From contig NJFT01000021.1 in the NCBI GenBank assembly GCA_002221725.1, positions 62,001 to 126,000 of the forward strand: a DNA stretch of 64,000 bases, read 5' to 3'. Source of the DNA: Scedosporium boydii (lineage: Eukaryota; Ascomycota; Sordariomycetes; Microascales; Microascaceae). The notes under the pieces are model-generated. The model was not told where the DNA came from, made no database searches, and saw nothing but the letters and a program-made list of their open reading frames with translations. The position numbers and the translations under genes are program-made. Shown in pieces: positions 2,979 to 64,000 of the stretch (the stretch's first letter is position 1; every line of letters begins with the position of its first letter).

Positions 2979-4299
2979 CCCTCCCGACACACACACATCA
3001 AGCGCACAGGTGAATAACAGCATGATAGCGGTCATTGAATCTCATAAATCAAATCTCTTCCAGGCATATCGCCTTGTGAGTATATCAAGAGAGGGGATGG
3101 GTAATAGTAAGCCGAGGATGATGCAGAAGACAAGGCGGTTTACTTCGTGGTTGGGACGCAGTACTTGTACAATAGCTCCATTAAGCTGTTCCTTAGAAGA
3201 GAGCTTTTGCCGACAACATAAGAGCTGTGAAAGCGCGAGATGCAGGCGACACTGAGAAAACAACTTGGTGCAAACACTCAATTCTACGCAGCGCACGCGG
3301 AACACTGATTGCAATATCATTGATGTCCGGAGGTAATGATTCCTAGAATCATCTCGCCCGTCACCCGTCCCGTATTGATCTCATGAGCCCACCTGTATTA
3401 CTCTAATAAGAACATGCAGCACACCACGACTCCGGGACTGGACAGAACCAGGTCGGCCCAGGCAGCCGTCATCCCGAAAATGTTCAATGCACCCACAATT
3501 TTAAACTTGCAAAGGATGTACATAATCTTACATACTGGTGACGTCCCGCTCCAAAACAAAATCGACTAGCGGATCTCAAGCGAGCGGTTTGGCCGACAAG
3601 TGTATCAATATCAGTCGTCCGTTTCCTTTTATTTCCTTTCGCTTTGCTTTGCTCATTTCTGCCCTCTATACGAAGGTATTGAATTCTTTTTTTCTTCCCC
3701 CCGGTCGTTGATTTGACAGGCCTGAAATATTGATACTCAGCGTTGCTTCTTTTGAACGTCGAGGCTTCTCCTCCTTGGACAATGCCACCGTGAACCCATT
3801 CAGCCGGATAGGCCCAGCCAACAGCGCTCGTTTGAACTCCAAAATCGGGGTAGCTTGGGAACCGTTCATTTTTCGCCCGAATGCGTCCTCTGTTCCCAGA
3901 CTGGTCTGGCTTCCCCATTGAAGGGACACTTGAAGCCGTCCCCAAGCCCAAGGAGGATAAAAGCGGTTAAATGCTCCTGGATAAATTGACCTCCCGTCCC
4001 CGAGTCCCACATCGCTGGGCAACTTGCCTTGTGAAACTGCTTCTCCTCATGAGTCGTATGAGGGGTTGCTTTCGCACGTTTGAGGGGCGCTTGCCGAAGT
4101 GACGCTTGGGAATGCTCGAGGGCGTGAGGACTGCACTGACGTATATAATAACCCTTCGAAGCTCCCCCCTCTGCGTCCCTGGCCAGCCCTCGTAGGAGCC
4201 TCAATTCTCATCTGCCTCGGACTTCTTGGGTTCGATATATCCGGTACTACTACATCGCTTATTCAAGCTCGGCCGTACAGATCGAGTGCTACTGTAACA
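2979..4299. other. Intergenic region upstream of the GH43 gene
   Basis: No convincing gene is seen. Several overlapping minus-strand frames (3484-4204) have no domain signature. A TATA-like element lies near the right end. Confidence 0.5.
4142..4150 (+). promoter_or_regulatory. TATA-box-like element of the GH43 gene
   Basis: TATATAATA lies about 150 bases before the ATG at 4300. It sits inside an upstream in-frame open stretch beginning at 4099, which argues that this stretch is promoter/leader and that translation starts at 4300. Confidence 0.45.
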
Positions 4300-50069: not shown

Positions 50070-51670
50070 TCACTAAGAACCTTGCTGGTCCCCAAGAGCT
50101 GCCCACCGCGGAACCTGGGGCCATAAGAGATATACCAATAGGAATGTCATTATCTCTAACAAATGTAAGTATAGTGATGACACGTATATGAAATTCATGT
50201 GCAAGTTAGCAACAAATGAGGTAGAGAAGAAGCAATAGAGGCACCCGCCATCCAAATAATATTAAAAGCTACAATGCCCATATTTTCAAGCCCAAGTGGA
50301 GCCTCGTCAACAGCACTGGGCATAAGGATAATAGAGTAGTTCTCAGCTAGTTACTAGTTATGCGCTACATGTTAGTATATATATTAGAAGCTTCCATCCT
50401 GCCTTTATAGGTAGTGTTGGACAATGCGGCAAATTTCCTTGGCCAATTTCATTTTACCAACCCGATATTCCTTGACCTAAGGGTGACGACTTTCCATATT
50501 CGCTTCAGGGCCTCGAGGTTAGCGACTTTAGATAGAAAGGAGACTTCCCCAACCTTTACATCACTGCGTTAGAAAATGGTAGCAGCCCTCTCCACGGACG
50601 ATACCGGGCCGGGTCCTGCCAAGGGCAACATGGGAGTCTTCATCAAAGCAACAGAGACCACTTCCAGCAGCATGTCTTTAGGGAGCTTGTCGTCCTGGAG
50701 GCGAAAACGTCCGCAAGTAGCTATAGATCCTCGATGCTGCGAGCAAAGAGACCGAAGGTATCAAAGGTCGGTGCGAAGACCGTTTGGCCTTCGAGTGATA
50801 TGGCGTTGAAGGTTGGTTTCATGGCGAAGACCCCCGTAAAAGATGCCGGGCGAATGATGCTCCCGCCGGTCTGCGCTCCGAGGCTTAGCGGCACTTGTAG
50901 GTCGGCTACGGCTGCTGCCGATCCACACGAGGAGCCGCCCGGGGTGCGATTCGGATCATGGGGGTTAGTTGTCTCGGTTCCCGAGTTGGTCACAGTGAAC
51001 TCGGTCGTTGTTTGTAAGGACAGCTGGTGCAGTGGCTATATAAGACTACTTACAGTCAAGTGGCGCTGGTCGCGACACTTGGAGCATCTTTTGTTGTCAA
51101 ATGGTCTAGCTGTAAGTAGATCACACATGACATTGTTGTTTTACCTGCGGGCGAAGTCAGATTACGAAAAACGAAAAAGAAGTAAATCGGGGAGCTGACG
51201 AACCGAAGATGAGAGCCCTAGCAGCTCGTAGAATCGCCACGGCGGAAGAATCGAAATCAGCCTGATGCCCTTGGTAAATGGGGGAGCCAAACTGCGTGGG
51301 CATATCTAGGATGCAGGCATAAGCTACGTTACCAACAATCGATGTCTTATGATACCTTTAGTATTCACGATATCCTTGACGCCTATTGTGCAACGGCCCC
51401 CTTTGGTTGTGGGGAATCTGGTCTAGAGCTCGTGCTTGGCCGAGTACGAAGGCGGGATCTGAATGTAGAAGTCAGCACACATCTTCGCGAGAGCGACGGG
51501 GGAATGTGAAGAAGGAAATGCTTACCGAGGTATGCCCATGCCTTGACAATGCTGTCGCGCTCCTTTATAGGGTCCAAGAGAGAAGAGGCATACTCCTCCA
51601 CCGTGATGGTGTTATTCTTGAGCAGGTCAAGTGCCTGGGTAGCCGTCAAGCTGTATAATCGTGGCACCAT
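50070..51670 (-). pseudogene. Amidase-signature family pseudogene
   Basis: From ATG at 51,670 the product starts MVPRLYSLTATQALDLL. Exons 51526-51670, 51356-51458 and 51204-51305 have good GT-AG borders and read DPAFVLGQARALDQIP, IGVKDIVNTK-D-MPTQFGSPIYQGHQ and DSSAVAILRAARALIFG-K. Exon 4 starts at 51,144, is split by a 120-base insertion, and resumes as TTEFTVTNSG and TPGGSSCGSAAAVAD, the Ser-Ser/Lys amidase core. Defects: exon 2 is out of frame by a small deletion after GPLH; the insertion; a TAG where Gln is expected after FGLFARSIEDL (near 50,721); another frameshift and a TAA near 50,580. C-terminal traces (PIGISLMAP) persist to about 50,090. It once coded for an enzyme that hydrolyses amides. 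Confidence 0.85.
51013..51132. mobile_element. 120-base solo-LTR-like element, copy 1, inside the amidase
   Basis: The element has TGT...ACA ends, an internal CTATATAAG resembling an LTR TATA box, and lies between two copies of TTGTT (51008-51012 and 51133-51137), a 5-base target duplication as made by LTR integrases. The amidase codons continue on both sides (GK-TT, then TTEF), so this is an insertion of the short element alone, not one end of a longer one. A matching copy lies at 52853-52972. Confidence 0.72.
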
Positions 51671-52852
51671 GGTCGATAACGGCCGGCGAGGAGATGGTAG
51701 ACAAGGACAGATACGACGTAGGCTGAATAAGATGTTTTCACAGATGAGAGAGGACATATGGGTTAAAATTCCATCGGGCCCTGCTGTTGTATGTTATGAA
51801 GAAGAGAGGATACAAGACCATAAGAGCCAAAGCCATATGGTGTGGTAAAGGAGGGAGAATGTGTGAGGCATTGAGGCGTCGAGGCCATTGGACCCAATCG
51901 CGCTTCGTTATCAGACGCAGAGAGTGAGGCAAAGCAGCAGCAGCCTGGCCGGGGTTGTATGTCGGCAGGCTGAAGTTCCTCCAAGAGAGAAAGAGGGGAC
52001 TGTCGGACCTCGATGCTAAACGTCGGAGCCCGACCCTTGGGCAAGATGAGAAAACCGGTCGTTCTCCCCCACGATAGCCAAGGTTAGAATTTCACATATT
52101 TTCACGATGACCTCCCCAATGCCAACACCCGCTCGCCGAGGCACTTGTCGCACTGGTGGTTTGGCGTGGAGCTGACGGAAGAGGAGAAGCTCGCGATAAA
52201 GGGTCATATGACAGAGATGAGATCATAAAGTGATCCAGCTTAGAATTAGCTAGTAGTGTAATTTTACAATCCGTGTCACTTCCTGTTTCTTCCAAGACAT
52301 GATACATCGAAAGAGACACGCCCACATGCTTTTCCCTGTTGTCAACTCCAACATCAATCGCATGTGACCATCGAATACGGCTAGAACTTTGAGGCTGCAT
52401 CTGCCTATAAAACTCTGATGGCTACAGGCTGCGTAGTGGGCAATCTTGGGGGTTGGATCAAGCTCGCAACCCAGAGGCTAGCAAGGCTTCAATTGAATCC
52501 TCTCACGATAGCTACCCCTTCTCGATTGTGTATCGTCTTGACACCTTTACGGCTAGCAGCCAGTGCCCTTGAGGAGAAACTGGGGTTCCCATCGGAGAAA
52601 ATCACGGAAACTGGCTGGAATCTATCTTGGTCCGGTCCACCGAAGTCAGCCTCATCAGAAGCACCGCGACAATCGTCTTCGAACCGCGCGGCTGAGGCTA
52701 TTAATAACTTCAGCAGGGTCCATAGCGTGGAGAAGCCCACGACCGAGGTAACCCTTTTCACTATGATATCCTAAATCCCGAAACCACTCGAGCTCGCTGT
52801 GAGGCCTATGCTCAGAGCTCTCCCGTCGGCCCGACTTTTATATATGTTACCG
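51671..52852. other. Decayed DNA with unresolved minus-strand traces
   Basis: The minus-strand sequence 52,090-52,760 has moderately long broken frames (for example ending GVKTIHNREGVAIVRGFN near 52,490) that faintly recall TauD/TfdA-like oxygenases ('EGRGFAVVRGL'), but too little is preserved to name a family. A TATATAAAAG-like box is present on the minus strand near 52,840. Confidence 0.3.
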
Positions 52853-53365: not shown

Positions 53366-53416
53366 ACCCTAACCCTAGACGAACCCTCCCATATCTTGGT
53401 GACCTAGGGTTAGGGT
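53366..53416. repeat. Inverted telomere-like repeats
   Basis: ACCCTAACCCTAG (53366-53378) and its perfect reverse complement CTAGGGTTAGGGT (53404-53416) flank 25 bases. Each arm holds two units of the fungal telomere repeat TTAGGG. It lies between the decayed region and the gene cluster. Confidence 0.8.
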
Positions 53417-53734: not shown

Positions 53735-54826
53735 TTATTTTGACAATTTGTAAACGAACTTCTTTCCGGAAATCTTCTTAGCTCTAATCGCTTTGATGCC
53801 ATCTAGAACTCCTCCCAGCCCTGTAGATTGTACTAACAGGGGATGCTCATGAATTAGCCCCCGGTCGAGTAGATCCTGGACAGTTCTTGTCCACTTCACA
53901 GCAAACTCGTACGCTTCTGGATCTGCCAGACGCCCATGCGGCGATGGCCACCCAATGTCCTTCCCAAGCATAGTCGGGCCTAAGACCCAATCTGCTTTTA
54001 TGATCTTCCGCTTGGCAGCTACCGCCATTGGATACGGGTCGAGGGCCGTGTACTTGCCGCCCACCCGCCCGATGGCTCCATAGCATATCTCCATACTCTC
54101 CGTCGTCGTGATGCAGTCGAGTGCGTAGAGCAATCCGTTGCGCGTATATGACCGGATGGCGGCTGCGCAGTCAGGAGCGTGGTAGTCGAAGACTTCCTCG
54201 GCGCCGTAGGATCTGACTAGTTCAAAGCTGTGTGGGGAGCAAGTCGCCAATGGCAGGAAACCAGCCAACCGAAGGAGTTGGATGGCGGCGGTCCCGGTAG
54301 CAGTCGAGCCGCCATAGACGAGTACGGGGACGGGCTTCGGGCTGGGCGCTAGTGGGTATCCTGGGAGACCAAGGCTTTTGAAGAGGGCCAGGCCGGCAGT
54401 CATGAAGCTGGTTCCAAGAGCGGCGCCGCATTCAAAGCTTACGGTATCGGGAAGTTTTATGACGCCAACGGGACGAGCCCCAACAAACTCCGCAAAGGCA
54501 CCAAGAGAAGGCTCCAGTGGATTCATGCCCATAAGAATGGCAAAAACTCGATCGCCGACATGGATACCATTGCTGTGCCGAGAAGCTTCGGGACCGATCT
54601 CTTCGACAACTCCGGCGACGTCGCATCCCAAAATTGCACCTGGTGTCATATATGGCCCGACCATCTTAGTGTCGACCGGATTCACAGAGACGGCCATGGC
54701 CCGAATGAGGACAATGTCGTCCGTCACCTCTGGGACTGGAGCCTCGTGGGAAAGCTCCAAGTCACCCTGATCATTGCCCACAACGGCAGTTTGGATGCGA
54801 TTCAAGCCATTCGAGCCTCCTCCCAT
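53735..54826 (-). CDS. Trans-acting enoyl reductase (LovC/EqxC type) of a polyketide cluster
   Basis: A single exon of 363 residues in the zinc-independent medium-chain reductase family. Marks of the trans-ER group: [45 protein letters not shown], the NADPH loop [22 protein letters not shown], then [20 protein letters not shown] and [12 protein letters not shown], and [20 protein letters not shown]. These proteins reduce enoyl intermediates on a partner polyketide synthase whose own ER domain is dead, and set which cycles are saturated. They are therefore almost always encoded beside a highly reducing PKS or PKS-NRPS. None is in the window. The gene diverges from a Zn2Cys6 regulator. The protein is intact, with normal length for the family. 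Confidence 0.93.
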
Positions 54827-56249
54827 TTTGCCGAGTACAAAGGCCGGGAAACTGTGCTTGTACCCTGATGTCTGATCCCGGGAAGTGGGGCGTTAAGTCC
54901 GTATTTTCGGCCTTGGTTTCTAGTTAAAAACCACCGGAGTGTCGGCGTTGCCGAAATCGGAAACAATCAAACAGATGCGAGCTGGACACTTGTGGTCTGT
55001 TCGAGGGGTTAGATGCAGTGCGCAATGCATTTGGTGTACTTATAGCATGACGATCGAGTGCGACCAGGCCCAATAAACTTGGCCCAAAGCCACACATGAT
55101 AGCACCTAAGGATGTCATCTTACGCTGCTCGATGGTTGAAGTCCTTGCTACAGGAACCGAAAAGCCCCGAATAATACCGAAAAAAGAATAAGTCATACGG
55201 CGTAGAAAATCCTCCGAGTTTATGGACATCCAGGAACTGAACTCTAGCGAGAGCACCTATGTAACACTCTTTTGAAGAATCGAAAGTTCCGGAGCATAAT
55301 GGGCATGGTAGGATTGAGTGGGTTCAAATATCATTCTGCTAGCGAAACTGGGAGAAATCTACGTTGTATGCTAGGAGAGTGTATGTTACGACGGATGATC
55401 CCATGGGTTTAATAATGGATGCGGATTGTCAGTTCCGGATCGGTAGCCTCAATAGCCACAATTCTTATATGTTAGTAGTCATGATGGGAAAGGTTGGACC
55501 TATTATTGTCAGTTCTGTATACGCGAGATCTTCATGTTTTAAGCACTACCCTGCAGCTTGGCGAGTTATGACCGTGGTCAGTTCTTCATGTCGCGCCATC
55601 CGAGAAGGGTGTGTGTGCAGCACGGGTAGATCCTTCATTCGAGACTTGGCGGCGGCCCATCGGCCCCGTAAGGTTTAGCCAGGCACTATGAAAGATAAAA
55701 GTACCCCTGCTAGTTCATGTTGTACCCTTTTTTGTGGCTTGAAGATTATTAGATGTGATGTAGATCAGTGATGCAGATATTTTGCCCAAAACTACCACCT
55801 TTTCAAGGATCAATGCCCCCCAATCAACGCAGTTGCGTCTCATCCCCATAACACCTTCCTTACTTCTGACCGGGATTGAAGATAGGGAAAGCACTGGCAT
55901 TAGAACGGTGCAGCATAGGAGCAAAATCCCTCATGATGGATTGATTCAATGGTTCCATCAGAATCGTATTCCACCATACAGGAGGGCCACGCCCCTGACG
56001 TGCTTGATGCTCTTAAGCACACGAACCGTACTCTGCCTTCAGCTGTCATGACCGGCCCCCAAAACCCCATCTTTACGTCTAAAATCTCATGCCCCAACCA
56101 ACCGTCTGCGGTAAGGGTCACGAAATGCAACACACGTGACCGATGAAATAAGGAACACATATATTGGCCCTGTCTCTTGCGCAGATGTCTGCATAGTGTT
56201 ATTTCCGCCTGGTGCCGACCATAGAAATGACCTGGTACGCTTTCCTATC
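54827..56249. promoter_or_regulatory. Divergent promoter region between trans-ER and regulator genes
   Basis: 1.4 kb with no gene recognised. As it separates two oppositely transcribed cluster genes it probably holds binding sites for the cluster regulators; no specific site could be assigned by eye. Confidence 0.4.
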
Positions 56250-57707
56250 ATGGCTTCGAACACATCTTCCGACGCTTTCCTCTCCATCCGAACTTCTTGT
56301 GATAGGTGCCGCTGCCAGAAACTCAAATGTCTCGTCCAGCTCTCCGCCGAAGCTCCGAATGGTAATGTATGTTGTCAGCGATGTGCCCGTGCCATGGTTC
56401 CGTGCGTGTTTAGCCGTCGGAGCAGGTCTCGGCGCACAAAGGTGGATTCGGATCGGAAGCGAAACTGGAGGAATGGTGCGGCGATCTACAATCCACAGGA
56501 TCCTGATGTCGTCACGGGGACCCGCCCAGCGAACCTATCGGATACTCAATGTCCGAAACTTATAGAGGAACATATCACGAGTATCACACCTCCGAACGGC
56601 CTCATGACCCCCGGAACCGAGGTATTCTTCGACGGCAGCTGGAATCAATGTCCTCCGCAGGATACATTGGCACTAAGCCGCATTCCGGCAACAAAGGACG
56701 CGGACGATCACTATCTGGAGTACGCGTTCCCCGTGAATGACAGCATCAACGGCGTCCAGTTATTCTCTGATGAAACAACCCTTGTCAGTCAGGTAGGCTG
56801 GGAGCTGGACTTGTCGGACCATGGGGTCCTGCCTCCCTCTTCATCATCCATAGAAGGGAACCAGAGCTCCACTGGATCCACCACTTTCGAAAATCACAAT
56901 CTACTCTGGGAGCGCGGTACGTCTACGAGGATGCTTCTGGATCTGGCTTCTGACTTGCACGAAAGGTTGGAGGCACTGGAGAAGGGGACGTGGCAGCAGG
57001 AGACCCACAATGCCCTGGACAACTATCCAATCGGAAGTGTACTACACCTATCTCAGAAATTCACCAACCTCGCGAATGCACTACGGAGGGCTGGTCCGTC
57101 CGGCGAAGAGGCCGCGGCTTCGAGTCGAGGATCCCCAATGAACTGCGAGGCAGACTCCATCCATGTGCCAGACTCCGAGAGATCCCGGAACGACTCCATA
57201 GCGACCGGAGGTCTTTCATCAAGCTCCGACCCGTCAGTTACCCTCATTCTACTAAGCAGCTATATCACCCTTACTCGGATCTATACGATTGTCCTGGGGC
57301 ATTTCCAGCGCCACCTCAACCTACAGCCCAACGCCTGGGTACGAGCCCCACCACCGAGCCTGGACCCTGGGCCAACAGTATGTCTTGGCGAGCTTCCAAT
57401 GATAGATGCGTCATATAGTCGCACACATACGGCTATCCGCATGGTCCTCGACTCACTCGGACAGGCCGAAGATGCTTTGGGCCTTTACCTCCCACAAATT
57501 CACTCTCCTGACGATCATGAATCCTTACGAAGCGGCAGCACTGATATCAAAGCCCTCTCCGACGTCCAAGTAAAGCCAGACCTCGCCATTGCGGTCATTC
57601 ACAGGGAGGTATTAACTGGAGCCGGCAGTATCAAGGAAGTGCTTACTACGCTGGGGAAGAGGGTCACGGATATCAAGGAGCTACTGCGCGAGAAGATGGG
57701 CCTGTAG
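56250..57707 (+). CDS. Zn2Cys6 transcription factor, pathway-specific (AflR-like layout)
   Basis: A single exon, 485 residues from the first sensible ATG (56,250). The binuclear zinc cluster is near the N-terminus: SCDRCRCQKLKC then VCCQRCARAMVPC, with 14 residues between the halves and a basic tail SRRSRSRRTK. This long-spacer zinc cluster followed by a poorly conserved activation region (LILLSSYITLTRIYTIVLGH, then MIDASYSRTHTAIRMVLDSL) is typical of AflR-like regulators embedded in secondary-metabolite clusters, not of the large Fungal_trans family. It most likely activates the neighbouring trans-ER, cyclase and transporter genes. Confidence 0.88.
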   Translation: MASNTSSDAFLSIRTSCDRCRCQKLKCLVQLSAEAPNGNVCCQRCARAMVPCVFSRRSRSRRTKVDSDRKRNWRNGAAIYNPQDPDVVTGTRPANLSDTQCPKLIEEHITSITPPNGLMTPGTEVFFDGSWNQCPPQDTLALSRIPATKDADDHYLEYAFPVNDSINGVQLFSDETTLVSQVGWELDLSDHGVLPPSSSSIEGNQSSTGSTTFENHNLLWERGTSTRMLLDLASDLHERLEALEKGTWQQETHNALDNYPIGSVLHLSQKFTNLANALRRAGPSGEEAAASSRGSPMNCEADSIHVPDSERSRNDSIATGGLSSSSDPSVTLILLSSYITLTRIYTIVLGHFQRHLNLQPNAWVRAPPPSLDPGPTVCLGELPMIDASYSRTHTAIRMVLDSLGQAEDALGLYLPQIHSPDDHESLRSGSTDIKALSDVQVKPDLAIAVIHREVLTGAGSIKEVLTTLGKRVTDIKELLREKMGL

Positions 57708-58300
57708 TGTAAGCGAGTAAGCAAGGACGATTACTGTGTCCGAGGATCGGCGCATCGGTAGGGCTGAAGGGGAAATGATGTAACGAATCCACGTACGATA
57801 TTTGCCATGAATAAATTACAGGTTGAACCTGTCTTACGTATAGCGATAGAGTGCTACGTAAACTAGTTTAGTGCAGGATCTTTTTCAACCTGTAGTCAAG
57901 GAAGATGGAGAGATGGAGAATTAGAGTTGACCAGGATCAAATGCGGTGGTGGTGTGGACAAGACCGCAAAGTGGGGGGAACGGGAGGCCGAACCGGGATA
58001 AAACATGGCACCACCTGCGCTGCACGAAGATCTGACTGGCGGACCATCCGATTGGCTGTGGGCGGCACTATGTAACGTATCGTTACACAGGGCAGGAACA
58101 TCGCATCATGCTTCTTCTCTTTTCTTATCCAAATCCTGCTTAGTGCGGGAGAGTCTCGCATGCAACTTGCATCTTAGATTGGTTCACGGCCGGAGCGAGG
58201 GCGGTGATTCTCAATGATACGGTAGATTTATTGATCCGACTGTTTTCCCCAGGATACTAACACTACGCCCGCGGTGATAAGTTCCCATGTCCATCGCCCC
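57708..58300. other. Convergent 3' spacer, 0.6 kb
   Basis: The spacer lies between the stop codons of the regulator and the Diels-Alderase. No gene is seen. Confidence 0.45.
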
Positions 58301-59491
58301 CTATGGCAGTTGGAGCTGACCACTCGCACCGCCCCCAACAAATCGTGTCTCACCATCCGATCCTCCGAGGACCCCCTCGACAAACCCCGATTTGCCCGTG
58401 CCGTTCGGCCCGGGCGCACTTGTTGGATTGCTCCACCATGCAATCTTATGACGCACCTCAAAACGCCACTGTTTGCGACATTGCTGCCTAGGCCCTTGGA
58501 CGAAGTCGATGAGGTAGCCAGTGTTCTTGTCCCGGAACGCCCCAGAGAGACCGCCTTCTTCGCGCATTTTCTGGATTGCAACAACATCTTGAATATTGAC
58601 ACCTTCCTCATTTTGTGACTCCGTGTCGACAACATGCTGCGCCGCGCACACTAGCTCATCGTCATGGTAGAGCCTGGCAACTATGTGCGGAACCCAGCCG
58701 TCGGCGGCCGAGGAGATAATGCGCAGAAGCTGCAGCATGTACGGCCCGGCGGTGGCGCACAAGTAATAGGCATCCGTCATAATCTGCGGCCAGGCTAGGG
58801 CAGACCACCCCCGAACCATCCCGCCGCGGGCCCCGTCTTCCTTACGCATGCTCAGCTCGCGCTTCTCCGCGGTACCACTCGCTTCGTCCACGATTTCGAA
58901 AGCCAGATCCGCAGTAGCGGCGACGGGTCCCATGGGGAAAATGTAGTATACTGACGGTCCTAGAAGCGCAACATCCTCCGTTTTCGGAAGTCGTGCCTGG
59001 CGGTCGCCTCCTAGCGAGTGTAGATGGATGGTCCCCTCCACGGAACCTGGGGCCCGGAACCGTACGGTGGCAGTCGATAAATCCGCGGCGATGCTGAATT
59101 CTGCAGTTGACAACTCTTCGCTGACGCTACCGCCACCTGAAGTCCATAGTCCATGCACGCGACCACGGCTCTCGGGAGAGTTTCCCTCACTCGTAATGAT
59201 AGACTCCGCAAAGTAGATTTCTTTACCCCACATACTGCCGTCGGGCCATACTGCGTTGAGATCTACGTGAAAACCTCCCTCTTTGATGCCCCGCGCATCG
59301 CGGTAGAAGGAAACCGACGTGGCTGACTCCATATTGAAGGCGTCGAATTGCCACAGCTCCCAAGCCGAGTCATTGATCCGGTTGACCATCTTCGGAAAGA
59401 GGTTGGGAGAGCTGGGCACGAATGGATCGAGCGGCACAGGGCCGGTGACGACGGAGTCGGCTGCCATATAGGACACAAATGTGCTCGTCAT
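58301..59491 (-). CDS. Lipocalin-like fungal Diels-Alderase (decalin-forming cyclase)
   Basis: A single exon of 396 residues from ATG at 59,491; the frame runs on upstream, but a TATAAGA box at 59,581-59,587 sits about 95 bases before this ATG. Family marks: SPNLFPKMVNRINDSAWELW near residue 30, GGFHVDLNAVWPDG, ALLGPSVYYIFPMGPV, VRGWSALAWPQIMTDAYYL, MLQLLRIIS, HIVARLYHDDELVCAAQHVV, SGAFRDKNTGYLIDFV, and the C-terminal RHKIAWWSNPTSAPGPNGTG followed by SGFVEGVLGG. This two-barrel family includes CghA, Fsa2, Eqx3 and Phm7, which fold a linear polyene-tetramic acid so that an intramolecular Diels-Alder reaction gives a trans- or cis-decalin. Which stereoisomer cannot be told from sequence. No cofactor is required. 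Confidence 0.92.
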   Translation of the reverse strand: MTSTFVSYMAADSVVTGPVPLDPFVPSSPNLFPKMVNRINDSAWELWQFDAFNMESATSVSFYRDARGIKEGGFHVDLNAVWPDGSMWGKEIYFAESIITSEGNSPESRGRVHGLWTSGGGSVSEELSTAEFSIAADLSTATVRFRAPGSVEGTIHLHSLGGDRQARLPKTEDVALLGPSVYYIFPMGPVAATADLAFEIVDEASGTAEKRELSMRKEDGARGGMVRGWSALAWPQIMTDAYYLCATAGPYMLQLLRIISSAADGWVPHIVARLYHDDELVCAAQHVVDTESQNEEGVNIQDVVAIQKMREEGGLSGAFRDKNTGYLIDFVQGPRQQCRKQWRFEVRHKIAWWSNPTSAPGPNGTGKSGFVEGVLGGSDGETRFVGGGASGQLQLP

Positions 59492-59989
59492 GGTGTTAGT
59501 TCTTGTGTTGTCTTCTAGTAATCGTGGATGGAGTAAGCGGGAGAGCGAAAGATGACCTTTGGTGACACAAGTATGCTCTCTCTTATATCCCGTAACGAGG
59601 AAACCAACGAGAGAAAAGAAATGACATTTTAATGCCTTGAATTGAATCTCGTCGAATTTCGGACCTTTTCGGCAGGATTGTGTGTTGCTGACGCAGGATT
59701 CGAGGATATACGATACGATATTATACGAAAAAAAGCGGACCGAACTCTGCGCATTAGCTTCAGACATTTTTAGACAAATTATCGTGCAATTATTATTACG
59801 ATAAATCTATGTATAAAGGCTATCACACGCGCAGTCTAAGGCCCAGAATGATGTATCTATAGACCACAGAACATAATGTTTTTCAAGCGATGGTGGGTTG
59901 GGCGTGTTTGCCACTGATGGCGTCCACGACACCAAGGACAGATTTGAGACTCCGCCAACGATGATGAAGAAGCGTAAACATGAGTCTAA

Positions 59990-61825
59990 TTAGTAGTCTA
60001 CTGCAAACCGCTTTCTCAAATACTCGCCGTACTTGTAAAATGAGAATGGAACAGGGGCAAGCCCCAAACCAATGAATGCCAACAAGCTATTTCCCCATCC
60101 TAGCCCCAAATTCTGGTATAAGGGACTACCTGCAAGAGGCAAGAACGCTCCTGTAACGTTACGCAGCACGGTGTTGGCGGCGAGAGCAGAAGCAGCAGCA
60201 TCCGACCCAAAGGCGTCCACGAGGTAGAGTTGCGCGGGCATCATGACAAGGAAGGTGCTGAGGCCGATGATAAAGGTTCCGATTATGGGTACAATCCAGT
60301 GCGTGTGCTTGTCGGCACTCCAGCCGTAGATGAAAAAGCCGATAGGCATGAGAGGACTGCACCACATCATCAAGAGCAGGCGGAGCTCCGGCCGGGAAAC
60401 TGTTCCTCCCCGTTGCTGGTGGAGGAGCTTGTCACTTAGCACGCCGAAGAGGACGACGGCGAGGAGCATCCCCAGGCCCAGTCCAAAATATGAAAGTCCC
60501 GCGAGACTAGGGCGGAACCCGTAAGTTTCCTCGAATACGGCGGGAAAGGTTGTGAAGAGGAGGTATATAAGGCTGAACATAAAGGCAGTGTAGAGAGAGA
60601 TGAGGAAGACAACGGGTGAGAATAAAAGCATCCTAGTCGGCCGTATAATGGCACGAGCTAGGAGCTCTGGTTGACTGAGGTCTTTGTTGTGTGTACGAGG
60701 CCGGAGTCGGTCGTTTCCAGTAGCATTTCGTAGTCGCTTGGCTTTACGCTGGAGGAGAACGGGCTCATACGTTTCCCGCATTAATGGAATGGCTAGTAGA
60801 GAGATAACGCCGGCCTGGGGAAATCGAGATTCTATTAGTCAAGCCGTAATAAACACTCAGAAAATTTCGCGAGTCTAGGGACTCACCAGGATCAGAACCA
60901 GCCAGAATGTCCAGCGCCAGCCAAGATATTCAGTGACAAAACCACCAATAACAGGACCGATTACCTATATCGTGGGTGTCAGTGAATAATTTTCACCCTG
61001 TAAATACCACGGAAAGAAACAAGCAACTCACCGGACCTAGAAGCGGGCCGAGGCCAAACAGTGCCATGGCTTTTCCACGCTCCTCTTGTTTGTGGAGGTC
61101 TGCAATAGTCCCACCTCCTATTGCCATTGGAGAGGCGGCGACACATCCAGTGATGAAACGAAAAACTAAGAACATGGCAGTGTTGGTGCTTAGGGCACAA
61201 CCAATGGTGAAGGCGCAATAGAGGCCGTTCCCGATGTAGTAAATAACGAGTCTCCCGTAGATCTCGGACATGGGACTGATGAAAAGAGGGCCGAGGGCGA
61301 AACCCAGGATGTAGATAGTAACAGTTAGGGAAGCGACAACGCTGTCGGTAATGCCAAACTCTTTGCAGAGCGCATCAGCTCCCGGGGCAAATATCACCGC
61401 AGCTAGGTTCCTGCTCGGTATTTGTCAAAGGGCTTATCCATGGAGAAAGGGATCAAATTGTTGGTTGAAACCTACGAATACAACGTGAAAGCGCTGACGA
61501 GAAGGACATGTGTCAGCTTAGTTGCCGGCTTCCAGTTTCGAGGATGTGCTGGATCGTCGGGACCCTCCCAATCGACAACGTTTGACTCGTTAGCTTTCCC
61601 TTCTCTTTCGCTCTTCTCGGCCATTCTTGATTCCAAGTCATCTCTCTCGTGTTCGTTCGTCGGGACTAGGCCAGCCCTAACTTCCCTCGATGAAGCCATG
61701 GGGGTGTCCGATAAAACTATGTCCTCGGTGGGCTGTCTAACATCGAGTGGTAGAATGGCGGACGAGCTGGAGTGTGGGTGTTGCCAGGGAATGATATGGC
61801 TGCGGCGGCGAGATTTGAATAGCAT
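59990..61825 (-). CDS. MFS exporter (DHA1 multidrug type) of the cluster
   Basis: Four exons, complement(join(59990..60814, 60887..60964, 61032..61410, 61476..61825)), 543 residues. An 80-residue hydrophilic N-terminus ends in VVDWEGPDDPAHPRNW, the usual entry to fungal DHA1 transporters. Twelve membrane helices follow. The motif-A-like loop is LFISPMSEIYGRL. The junctions read [39 protein letters not shown] and LVLIL-AGVISLLAIPLMRE. Such proteins export drugs and self-made metabolites by proton antiport, and related genes sit in equisetin-type clusters. The start could also be the downstream ATG at 61,699. It lies head-to-tail 0.5 kb upstream of the Diels-Alderase start. Confidence 0.9.
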
Positions 61826-62967
61826 AGGTCAACAAATGTAAAGGCGAAAAGATGCAAACGGATGGAGTTGGTATGTAGACTGTTATGTAGACTCTATGGA
61901 AAATAAAGAGAAAATAAAAATACAAAAAAAAAAAGATGGAATATATATCGTGACTGCTACTCGTGGTGATGTTTACTGGCCAGGCTCGAGTAACTGTTTC
62001 CTGCCGACTTTTGCCCCTTTACTTCCGGGAATGAAGCTTCGATTGCCTCGACCATGTCTCGAAGCCCGGTTCATCCTCCGCACACGCGTCATCCGCCAAC
62101 CAGCATCCTGGTCCAGGTCGGCGTTCCTCTTTACTTGTACCCGAGAGATTGGTCGGCGGACATTGTCGGTTCAATATCGTGCCGCCAAGGCGGAGGTCTG
62201 GCTGCTTAAATCCGATAGAGTACAATACAAAATGTATACAATAAGAGACTAAAATGGATGTGGCCAATCTACATAGTTTACGCACTTACACGGGCCCGCT
62301 CAGAAGCTCAACACGCGCGATGAAGGGATGGTGGTACGAAGGAATTACCAAAAACACCAAGACATATAAACGGAGTTGGATCGTTGCACATAGAAATGTC
62401 TTTCTTGCTTTGTGACCTTTCGGGGGTGGTTGATGTCGAATACACTGCTTGTTACGACAGCCTATATGTTCTTTTGAGGGTAGGTCGGAGTACGACTATG
62501 CGAATGAAATTAATGAATGAATACTGTTATAATTTACTCAGCTACGAAGGCATTGTATAAGGCGCACACCGTTGAATTTAACATATCCTCCCTGTGTCTC
62601 ATGGACGCGACGTCACGGGTCGTTGTATTTCAGGGTGTGGCGCGGTTTCAACCTTCATGTTCCAATGGCACATCTGCTAACCATTATACAGTATACACTA
62701 TACGAGGTATAGCATTAGACTGATGAATTGCCACGTAAGACTCGGAGCAAAGACTGTACGACCATCCGCGGATGTCCGAAACACGTGGCTATCGTCTTCA
62801 TAGGTGATACTTAGCCTGCCACCGTGCCACCTCACCGTCCGCCGTAATCCCCGCCATCCCTTCCACCAAGACAGCTCCCTCAACCGACGGATAACTCCGT
62901 CCATATAATTTTCCGGGGTCATCAAAAAGGCATAAATCCTATCAACTCATTCATATCAACAACGGCC
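61826..62967. promoter_or_regulatory. Divergent promoter region, MFS exporter / second regulator
   Basis: 1.1 kb without a recognised gene. A TATAATT-like sequence near 62,903 precedes the plus-strand gene by about 65 bases. Confidence 0.4.
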
Positions 62968-64000
62968 ATGCCAGATGTCAACGTTCCTCCTGCCTCAATG
63001 GTACAAGACCCAGCCCAGGGATTTACAGCCACAACCCCCTCAAGCGAGAGGGAACGTCGACGTCCCCCACCTGTTTCCAGGCGCCGAGACAAGCCACAGT
63101 TGAGCTGTGACGAGTGTCGGAGGCGGAAGTGAGTGAACCGTGAACCTGCCGGCTTACACCACTTTCCCCGAAAACCTACGTTACACTATCTCCGATGTGT
63201 AGAGTGATCGTCCGACGCCTCCTGCTGCGGTCTTCGGTCACTCCCCCACCCTTTACTCGGGACTCGGCTGGGTAACTATGTGGACTTTGAGATCTAATAT
63301 GGGCTAATAGGGTGCGATGCGACCGTCTGCACCCCTGCGCCAATTGCTCGAGTAGGGGACGAGGCTCTTCCTGCACCTACCCCTCCACCACCTCCCGTGC
63401 AGCGGCTCTAGGACCACCGCATGGGAGCAACTATGTGCAGGATCGCATCAATCAGCTCGAAAATCTGGTCATAACGCTTATGCAGCAGGGCGGCGCCAGT
63501 CCTCGAAGTCCCCTGTCAGACCACCTCCCGCCGGTCACTCCGGACGGCAGCTCTCCTGGCCAGGCTATCCCGCCACCCGGAACCCAACCCGAGCTTTGTG
63601 AAGCGACAGCCGGACCAGAGGGGCTGCACGACGTGCCGCCATCCCCATCTGACTATGGTAGTATCAGAATTCGGGAATCAGGTGTTAGTTATGTCGGCAG
63701 CGCACACTGGGCCGCCGTACTCGACCGAATCACCGAACTCCGGGACCACTTCGAAAAGGAGGATGAGGCCCGCGCTCGGAGCTCCGACCCTCCCGTCCAT
63801 CTGCAGGGCCATCTTCTCAGCCCCCAGCTACTGTATGGTTGTTCAATGCATACGACCCTCGCCTCCATTCTCGACGCCGTCCCACCTCGGTCAGCTGTGG
63901 ATAGACTAGTAGCCCGTTATTTCAACGACTTAGACATGGCTGCAGGTACATTTTGTTAATCTTCGCTGAGGCCCCGAAAAACTCCGTTGTATCCCGTTTC
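62968..64000 (+). CDS. Zn2Cys6 transcription factor with fungal-specific TF domain, partial
   Basis: The first exon 62968-63128 gives PQLSCDECRRRK. The next exon starts at 63,311 and completes the zinc cluster as VRCDRLHPCANC...SSCTYPS, followed by a coiled-coil-like DRINQLENLVITLMQQG. A Pro/Ser linker leads to SYVGSAHWAAVLDRITELRDHF and RLVARYFNDLDMAA, the start of the Fungal_trans (PF04082) region. A GTACAT donor at 63,946 ends the exon, and the rest lies past the window. Unlike the first regulator it has the large two-domain layout. In equisetin-type clusters two regulators of different kinds are common, so this may be the second cluster regulator or the first gene beyond a different cluster boundary. 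Confidence 0.85.

Follow-up and report, generated by a model that had tools for sequence, protein, structure and literature searches.

Among the described gene clusters closest to the locus reported here, the trichosetin cluster of Fusarium fujikuroi carries genes for a hybrid polyketide synthase-nonribosomal peptide synthetase (PKS-NRPS), a Diels-Alderase, a trans-acting enoyl reductase (trans-ER), two Zn2Cys6 regulators and an exporter of the major facilitator superfamily (MFS), and is without the N-methyltransferase of equisetin, according to the accessible part of its description (PMC5408200). In the macrophasetin (mps) cluster of Macrophomina phaseolina, the locus tags in the available portion of the report (PMC9701702) run synthase, regulator, MFS exporter, Diels-Alderase, regulator and trans-ER, with a cytochrome P450 gene between the last two. 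A gene set of this kind lies across the right end of a 64,000-nucleotide stretch of Scedosporium boydii DNA (the window, G000:C21:62001-126000), which is part of a contig of 304,321 bases in a 42.9-Mb draft assembly of 442 contigs.

An earlier reading of the window (the original prediction) had named five of these genes, for a trans-ER, a Diels-Alderase, an MFS exporter and two regulators, and all five are present, as judged by Pfam matches and relatives of solved structure. It had also proposed that the window holds no PKS-NRPS and that the synthase should be found to the right. Positions beyond the window are given here in extended numbering, in which the window numbering is carried on into the adjoining 60 kb. 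A PKS-NRPS gene starts at 66320, only 2.3 kb beyond the window end and inside the 40-kb limit set beforehand, and lies wholly outside the window on the forward strand (extended 66320-78874; G000:C21:128320-140874). The genome yields 35 condensation-domain matches (38/38 candidates scored), and the single one on this contig (C21:136612-137880) is also outside the window, which fits the stated absence, although no ketosynthase search of the window was made. The six genes span 53.7-78.9 kb in the order trans-ER (-), regulator 1 (+), Diels-Alderase (-), MFS exporter (-), regulator 2 (+) and PKS-NRPS (+), and their sequences indicate that they almost certainly constitute a complete, apparently intact decalin-tetramate cluster.

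We propose that the reducing PKS half and the trans-ER would make a methylated polyene chain, to which the NRPS half would attach one amino acid before the terminal R/DKC domain releases the product as a tetramic acid. The Phm7-type Diels-Alderase would close a trans-decalin, the MFS protein would export the product, and the two cluster regulators would be in control. The predicted product class is a 3-decalinoyl-tetramic acid. In the synthase, the adenylation (A) core, from about motif A3 to A8, would have been swapped for a Coniochaeta-related one, with the C-A linker, the A subdomain, T and R staying native. We favour this explanation as a whole, comprising a decalin-tetramate cluster, an exchanged A core and a probable change of amino acid, with moderate confidence.

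The hybrid synthase and its adenylation code

The PKS-NRPS gene has seven introns, all GT-AG, and a single consistent frame encoding 4021 residues, with one terminal stop and none internal. Its domain order is KS-AT-DH-cMT-psiER-KR-ACP-C-A-T-R/DKC. Pfam matches in the exons cover KS, AT, DH, methyltransferase, KR, ACP, C, A, T and a terminal reductase-like domain, and inspection by eye shows the catalytic motifs of KS, AT, DH, cMT, KR, ACP, C and T. The available portion of a published survey finds no residues specific to Dieckmann-type release (PMC7421883).

A search for homologs yielded 3446 proteins, and the best 120 of these were listed. Whole-protein identity is 73% to a Lindgomyces ‘equisetin synthetase’, 66% to PrlS and 59% to Phm1. 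Over C-A-T-R, PrlS (61%) and Phm1 (56%) are the nearest characterised enzymes among the named matches listed. Identity to the Lindgomyces protein P0046 is 87% in the ketosynthase (KS), 78% in the condensation (C) domain and 63% in the R domain, and the corresponding values for P0063 of Coniochaeta ligniaria are 73%, 57% and 45%. Between A residues 3270 and 3400, identity is 80% to P0063 versus 66% to P0046.

The adenylation codes were read from an alignment of the S. boydii protein with the 83 of the 120 listed homologs that passed a filter (3500-4200 amino acids, TACSSS). The S. boydii code, DFESFGNTAK, falls outside the D[V/I]DVFGNLAK form carried by all 15 of its nearest full-length relatives (P0046 to P0064 without P0063; DVDVFGNLAK in 13, DIDVFGNLAK in two), which we call the serine-code form. 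Three proteins between P0046 and P0064 failed the filter, namely P0051 (DVDVFGNMAK), P0062 (DIDVFGNLAK) and P0058 (not read). The code DFESFGNTAK occurs elsewhere in only one of the 83 homologs, P0063, and DFESFGNIAK occurs in nine, one of which was deposited under the name fusaridione A synthetase. A separate pass with another filter and 94 sequences, S. boydii included, had 75 rows in common with the first, and the codes of these rows were identical.

We take DVDVFGNLAK to stand for serine on the basis of the phomasetin and pyrrolocin structures, and DFDTFGGILK presumably does the same, given the similarity of its bearers to equisetin-type genes. Comparison was extended to a set of 30 pocket residues mapped via the alignment. 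The Coniochaeta enzyme has 29 of these in common with the S. boydii domain, fusaridione-like enzymes have 21-23, two enzymes of unassigned product from Madurella and Cadophora have 22, the serine-clade members printed have 19-20, and equisetin-type Fusarium enzymes have 18. Fusaridione-type codes equal that of S. boydii at nine of ten positions, yet the A-core tree does not place S. boydii with this type, and FsdS is absent among the listed matches.

A probable mosaic adenylation core

Trees of individual segments were built, those of the C domain and the A core from 37 hand-chosen rows, comprising S. boydii and 36 of the 83 homologs. S. boydii groups with P0046 in the KS tree (97/96) and in the C-domain tree (99/96), where it lies inside the serine-code clade (100/100). 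Its C-terminal part (3525-4021) likewise falls inside the PrlS/Phm1 (serine-code) clade (99/98). In contrast, the A-core tree (3225-3400, without the nine code columns) joins S. boydii with P0063 (100/99) and has a serine clade that excludes it (100/97). Approximately unbiased (AU) tests agree with this conflict. For the A core, grouping S. boydii with the serine clade was rejected (p 0.003) and grouping it with P0046-48 had p 0.0004, and for the C domain, grouping it with P0063 was rejected (p 1e-7). Diagnostic sites shared with P0063 versus the serine clade number 32:11 within 3225-3400, compared with 82:500 elsewhere (Fisher p 4.8e-17), and the same excess was seen in none of the 15 serine-clade members examined as a control (p 0.24 to 1).

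The switch on the left is sharp and falls between residues 3213 and 3238, close to motif A3 (3233-3244). That on the right is less sharp, with the last P0063 site of the run at 3508 and clade sites resuming from 3520, and was set at the end of A8 (3496-3509). The putatively exchanged core thus covers residues from about 3214/3238 to 3508/3520, or about extended 76481-77353 on the forward strand. Its base composition shows no anomaly (0.545 vs 0.523 and 0.548). The synthase, out of sight of the original prediction, is an unusual and probably mosaic variant of its family, and these sequence comparisons suggest that the A core was probably exchanged into the S. boydii lineage from another lineage, a direction that we infer.

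Several points weigh against this proposal. Both the block and the groups in the trees were chosen after the identity scan, and the AU and Fisher p values are therefore optimistic. Residues 3401-3500 are mixed, with 11 sites shared with P0063 and eight with the serine clade. The N-terminal part of the A domain (3040-3215) is nearest to P0047/P0046, in the native clade, though this placement carries no starred support. The donor-type core was found in one relative only, the Coniochaeta protein P0063, at about 80%, so the donor would be distant, and common selection on the pocket could explain part of the signal. As to the amino acid, the presumed serine enzymes carry two codes, DFDTFGGILK in the equisetin-type Fusarium enzymes and DVDVFGNLAK in Phm1/PrlS, so that a difference in code does not have to imply a change of substrate amino acid. 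Elsewhere in the cluster, the intron ends of the MFS gene are provisional (candidate models of 551-558 amino acids, the longest, of 558, with three introns), and the boundaries of regulator 2 are approximate.

Some of these points would be accommodated if the locus were an ordinary serine-derived decalin tetramate cluster, similar to those of trichosetin or phomasetin, in which the A core arose in the same lineage and has come to resemble that of Coniochaeta by convergence on a common pocket. The gene set fits trichosetin, KS, C and R lie in the pyrrolocin/phomasetin clade, more than one code presumably serves serine, and the sites in 3401-3500 are mixed. However, the signal persists when three residues on either side of the nine code positions are removed (19:9 vs 82:500, p 6e-10). 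The tree of 3400-3520, a segment that holds none of the ten code positions, also joins S. boydii with P0063 (99/98), and the AU value of 0.003 for the A core is likewise opposed to this explanation, which we consider rather unlikely.

The A-core tree also places S. boydii and Coniochaeta together as sister to the serine clade (98/96), and codes of the form DF[DE]SFGN[IT]AK are present in outer groups. This arrangement might arise if the S. boydii core were the old type, retained from an ancestor, and the serine-type core had spread among the relatives by recombination. Such a history is unlikely, since the nesting of S. boydii with Lindgomyces in KS (97/96) and C (99/96) would require at least two replacements rather than one.

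An error of assembly, in which two synthase genes of the same genome were joined, is conceivable for a draft of 442 contigs whose genome holds other A and C domains. No close in-genome donor of the core was seen among the 47/47 candidates scored, where the next best match is 45% identical, leaving no close copy to mis-join, and the block sits within one long open exon. We therefore regard a chimera as extremely unlikely.

The odds are about even that the amino acid has changed, away from the serine presumably used by the nearest relatives. The code on its own was ruled out as a predictor, given the two codes among presumed serine enzymes. The available portion of one report describes fusaridione as tyrosine-derived (PMC10967133), and this, together with the similarity of code and pocket, makes tyrosine the leading guess. 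Our most specific proposal, which we hold tentatively, is that a natural swap of the A3-A8 core alone turned a serine-type line to another amino acid, most likely tyrosine, and that the cluster may make an undescribed N-unmethylated trans-decalin tetramate.

The literature searched contained no match for tyrosine-derived decalin tetramates and no matching product for Scedosporium together with tetramic acid. In the accessible part of one report, Scedosporium appears as a target of a cis-decalin tetramate from Aspergillus terreus (PMC12947280). Two further reports, PMC10212144 and PMC8224775, the latter on colposetins, added nothing that bears on the product. Two described compounds were considered as products and set aside with no link shown, namely lindgomycin, whose benzyl unit was taken to come from phenylalanine, and ascosetin, which has an isobutyl-type side chain in its nuclear magnetic resonance table (read as leucine). 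In the lindgomycin paper the producing strain is not Lindgomyces ingoldianus, whose synthase carries a serine-type code, and no P450 for an acid side chain was seen here.

The Diels-Alderase, accessory genes and surroundings

The single-exon Diels-Alderase gene (58301..59491, reverse strand) encodes 396 amino acids of the lipocalin-like type, with Pfam matches to DA_N (1.5e-65) and DA_C (7.1e-55). It has four relatives among solved structures, these being entries of Phm7, Fsa2 (two) and CghA. The entry titled only ‘Diels-Alderase’ was taken as Phm7 because its sequence agrees with P0035, which is named phm7. Identity is 56% to Prl3 and 43% to Phm7. In a tree of 48 rows (45 relatives found, S. 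boydii, CghA and Fsa2, with CghA on a long branch), a branch with support of 100/98 splits 33 rows, which include S. boydii, Phm7 and Prl3, from 15 rows that include Fsa2 and CghA. At the eight CghA pocket positions named by a published review, the S. boydii residues (S N Y W A L K L) equal those of Phm7 and Prl3 at all eight, and Fsa2 has G F Y W S M N C. By tree and pocket sequence, the enzyme thus belongs to the Phm7/Prl3 type and not to the Fsa2 type.

The same review states that the decalins of the Phm7 and Fsa2 pathways are mirror images, which makes a phomasetin-like trans-decalin the best guess here. A trans-decalin product is likely on these grounds. According to the accessible part of its report, the cis-forming SdtD carries Ser at the position equivalent to CghA 242 (PMC12947280), where the S. 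boydii enzyme has Ala. Since the trans-forming Fsa2 also has Ser at this position, the Ala speaks only weakly for trans. A pathway without a decalin, for example to a cytochalasan, has in its favour a published statement, in a review, that gene content alone cannot tell the two apart. We consider it very unlikely, because the Diels-Alderase groups with Phm7/Prl3 and the synthase with PrlS/Phm1, all of which are from tetramate decalin pathways.

Further Diels-Alderase-family matches occur in the genome at G000:C193:63362-63886 and G000:C231:16219-16790, the latter in two pieces and with one stop inside a match. Two metagenome proteins, P0001 from a 4-kb JGI contig and P0166, match the Diels-Alderase and a neighbouring histidine kinase, respectively, at 96% identity and suggest a sibling species or strain in a sequenced environment. 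The nearest named relatives of the synthase and the Diels-Alderase, from Lindgomyces, Xylona, Penicillium and Nemania, are spread patchily, which may reflect horizontal transfer. None from Microascales was recognised among the named matches listed for either protein, where many entries are nameless.

The trans-ER gene is a single exon on the reverse strand (53735..54826) that encodes 363 amino acids. Its product matches ADH_N (2e-11) and ADH_zinc_N (4.4e-8) and has LovC (3b6z) as its best solved relative at 310 bits, which places it in the LovC/EqxC type. The family assignments originally predicted for this enzyme and for the Diels-Alderase were thus upheld.

Regulator 1 (56250..57707, forward strand, 485 amino acids) is a probable Zn2Cys6 protein, with a Cys pattern seen by eye and a Zn_clus match (E 0.0026) below the Pfam cut-off. 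It had been called AflR-like, a label we dropped because no Pfam AflR family match was found. From its position beside the trans-ER and Diels-Alderase genes, it is perhaps a TF22/EqxR-like activator. The MFS exporter gene (59990..61825, reverse strand) has MFS_1 matches in two exons (8.1e-14 and 8.7e-19). Regulator 2, of the Zn2Cys6/Fungal_trans type, begins at about 62968 on the forward strand, reaches the window end at 64000 and runs on to about 65.6-65.7 kb. Its Cys motif is interrupted by an intron (by eye), and a Fungal_trans match (4.1e-12) lies in the exon just beyond the window end (L003:161-1564). In the trichosetin cluster, one regulator switches on the synthase, Diels-Alderase and enoyl reductase genes, and the second is product-induced and required for the exporter, according to the accessible part of that report (PMC5408200). 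Regulator 2 and the MFS gene are divergent neighbours here, an arrangement that would fit the pairing of the second regulator with the exporter.

No P450 gene lies on the contig among 112 listed genome matches (92/184 candidates scored), and no methyltransferase gene turned up beside the cluster, where no dedicated search was made beyond a scan of open frames in the flanks. In that scan, ten open frames (104-220 amino acids) gave one Pfam match only, although short exons could be missed. The tetramate would therefore probably be N-unmethylated and without further oxidation. The original prediction had described the left side as bounded by pseudogenes and housekeeping genes, and five of the scanned frames lie there. 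The single match, the only one among these five left-side frames, is an amidase piece (50721-51035, reverse strand, E 7e-30), perhaps joined by 51383-51793 (reverse strand) as an intron-bearing gene or pseudogene. Just left of the trans-ER gene, a telomere-like repeat, CCCTAACCCTA, and its reverse complement form an inverted pair at window positions 53367-53377 and 53405-53415, giving two matches in the window versus 0.02 expected by shuffling. To the right, the cluster is followed by an Mpv17/PMP22 family gene (79.9-80.5 kb) and by the histidine kinase gene (85.3-89.3 kb). The best named relatives of the latter are from Lomentospora prolificans (72% identity over the whole length), a genus placed in Microascaceae, Microascales, and from Parascedosporium putredinis (70% across 36% of the length).

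Comparison with known systems

The locus is a new member of an already known cluster type. The original prediction had suggested that gene order might define a new member, and the membership holds, but the order by itself defines no new type: it is identical to that of the mps cluster, as given in the accessible part of that report, once the mps P450, for which no counterpart was found in S. boydii, is removed. The same six genes make up the trichosetin cluster in its available description, where the gene order is unlike that of S. boydii, and the S. boydii Diels-Alderase is of the Phm7 type rather than the Fsa2 type. With the prl and phm systems the locus shares all eight Diels-Alderase pocket residues, whereas both of their synthases carry DVDVFGNLAK in place of DFESFGNTAK.

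Were the exchange refuted, the cluster would still be a clear new member, from Microascales. If it is true, the rule for the amino acid in this family of antibiotics could be tested with a single A-domain assay. Fungal PKS-NRPS chimeras are described as challenging to make in the consulted part of one report (PMC6854747), and a natural exchange with boundaries near A3 and A8 would point to positions at which such a hybrid can be cut, as has been shown for bacterial NRPS. The literature searched contained no exchanged A cores in fungal hybrids, and work on the evolution of fungal siderophore NRPS modules (PMC2644324) may include related cases. For bacterial NRPS, the available portion of a study shows exchange limited to the A core, while the C-A linker and the A subdomain remain native (PMC8097286). 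The exchange proposed here would have the same extent, in an enzyme that is a fungal PKS-NRPS hybrid.

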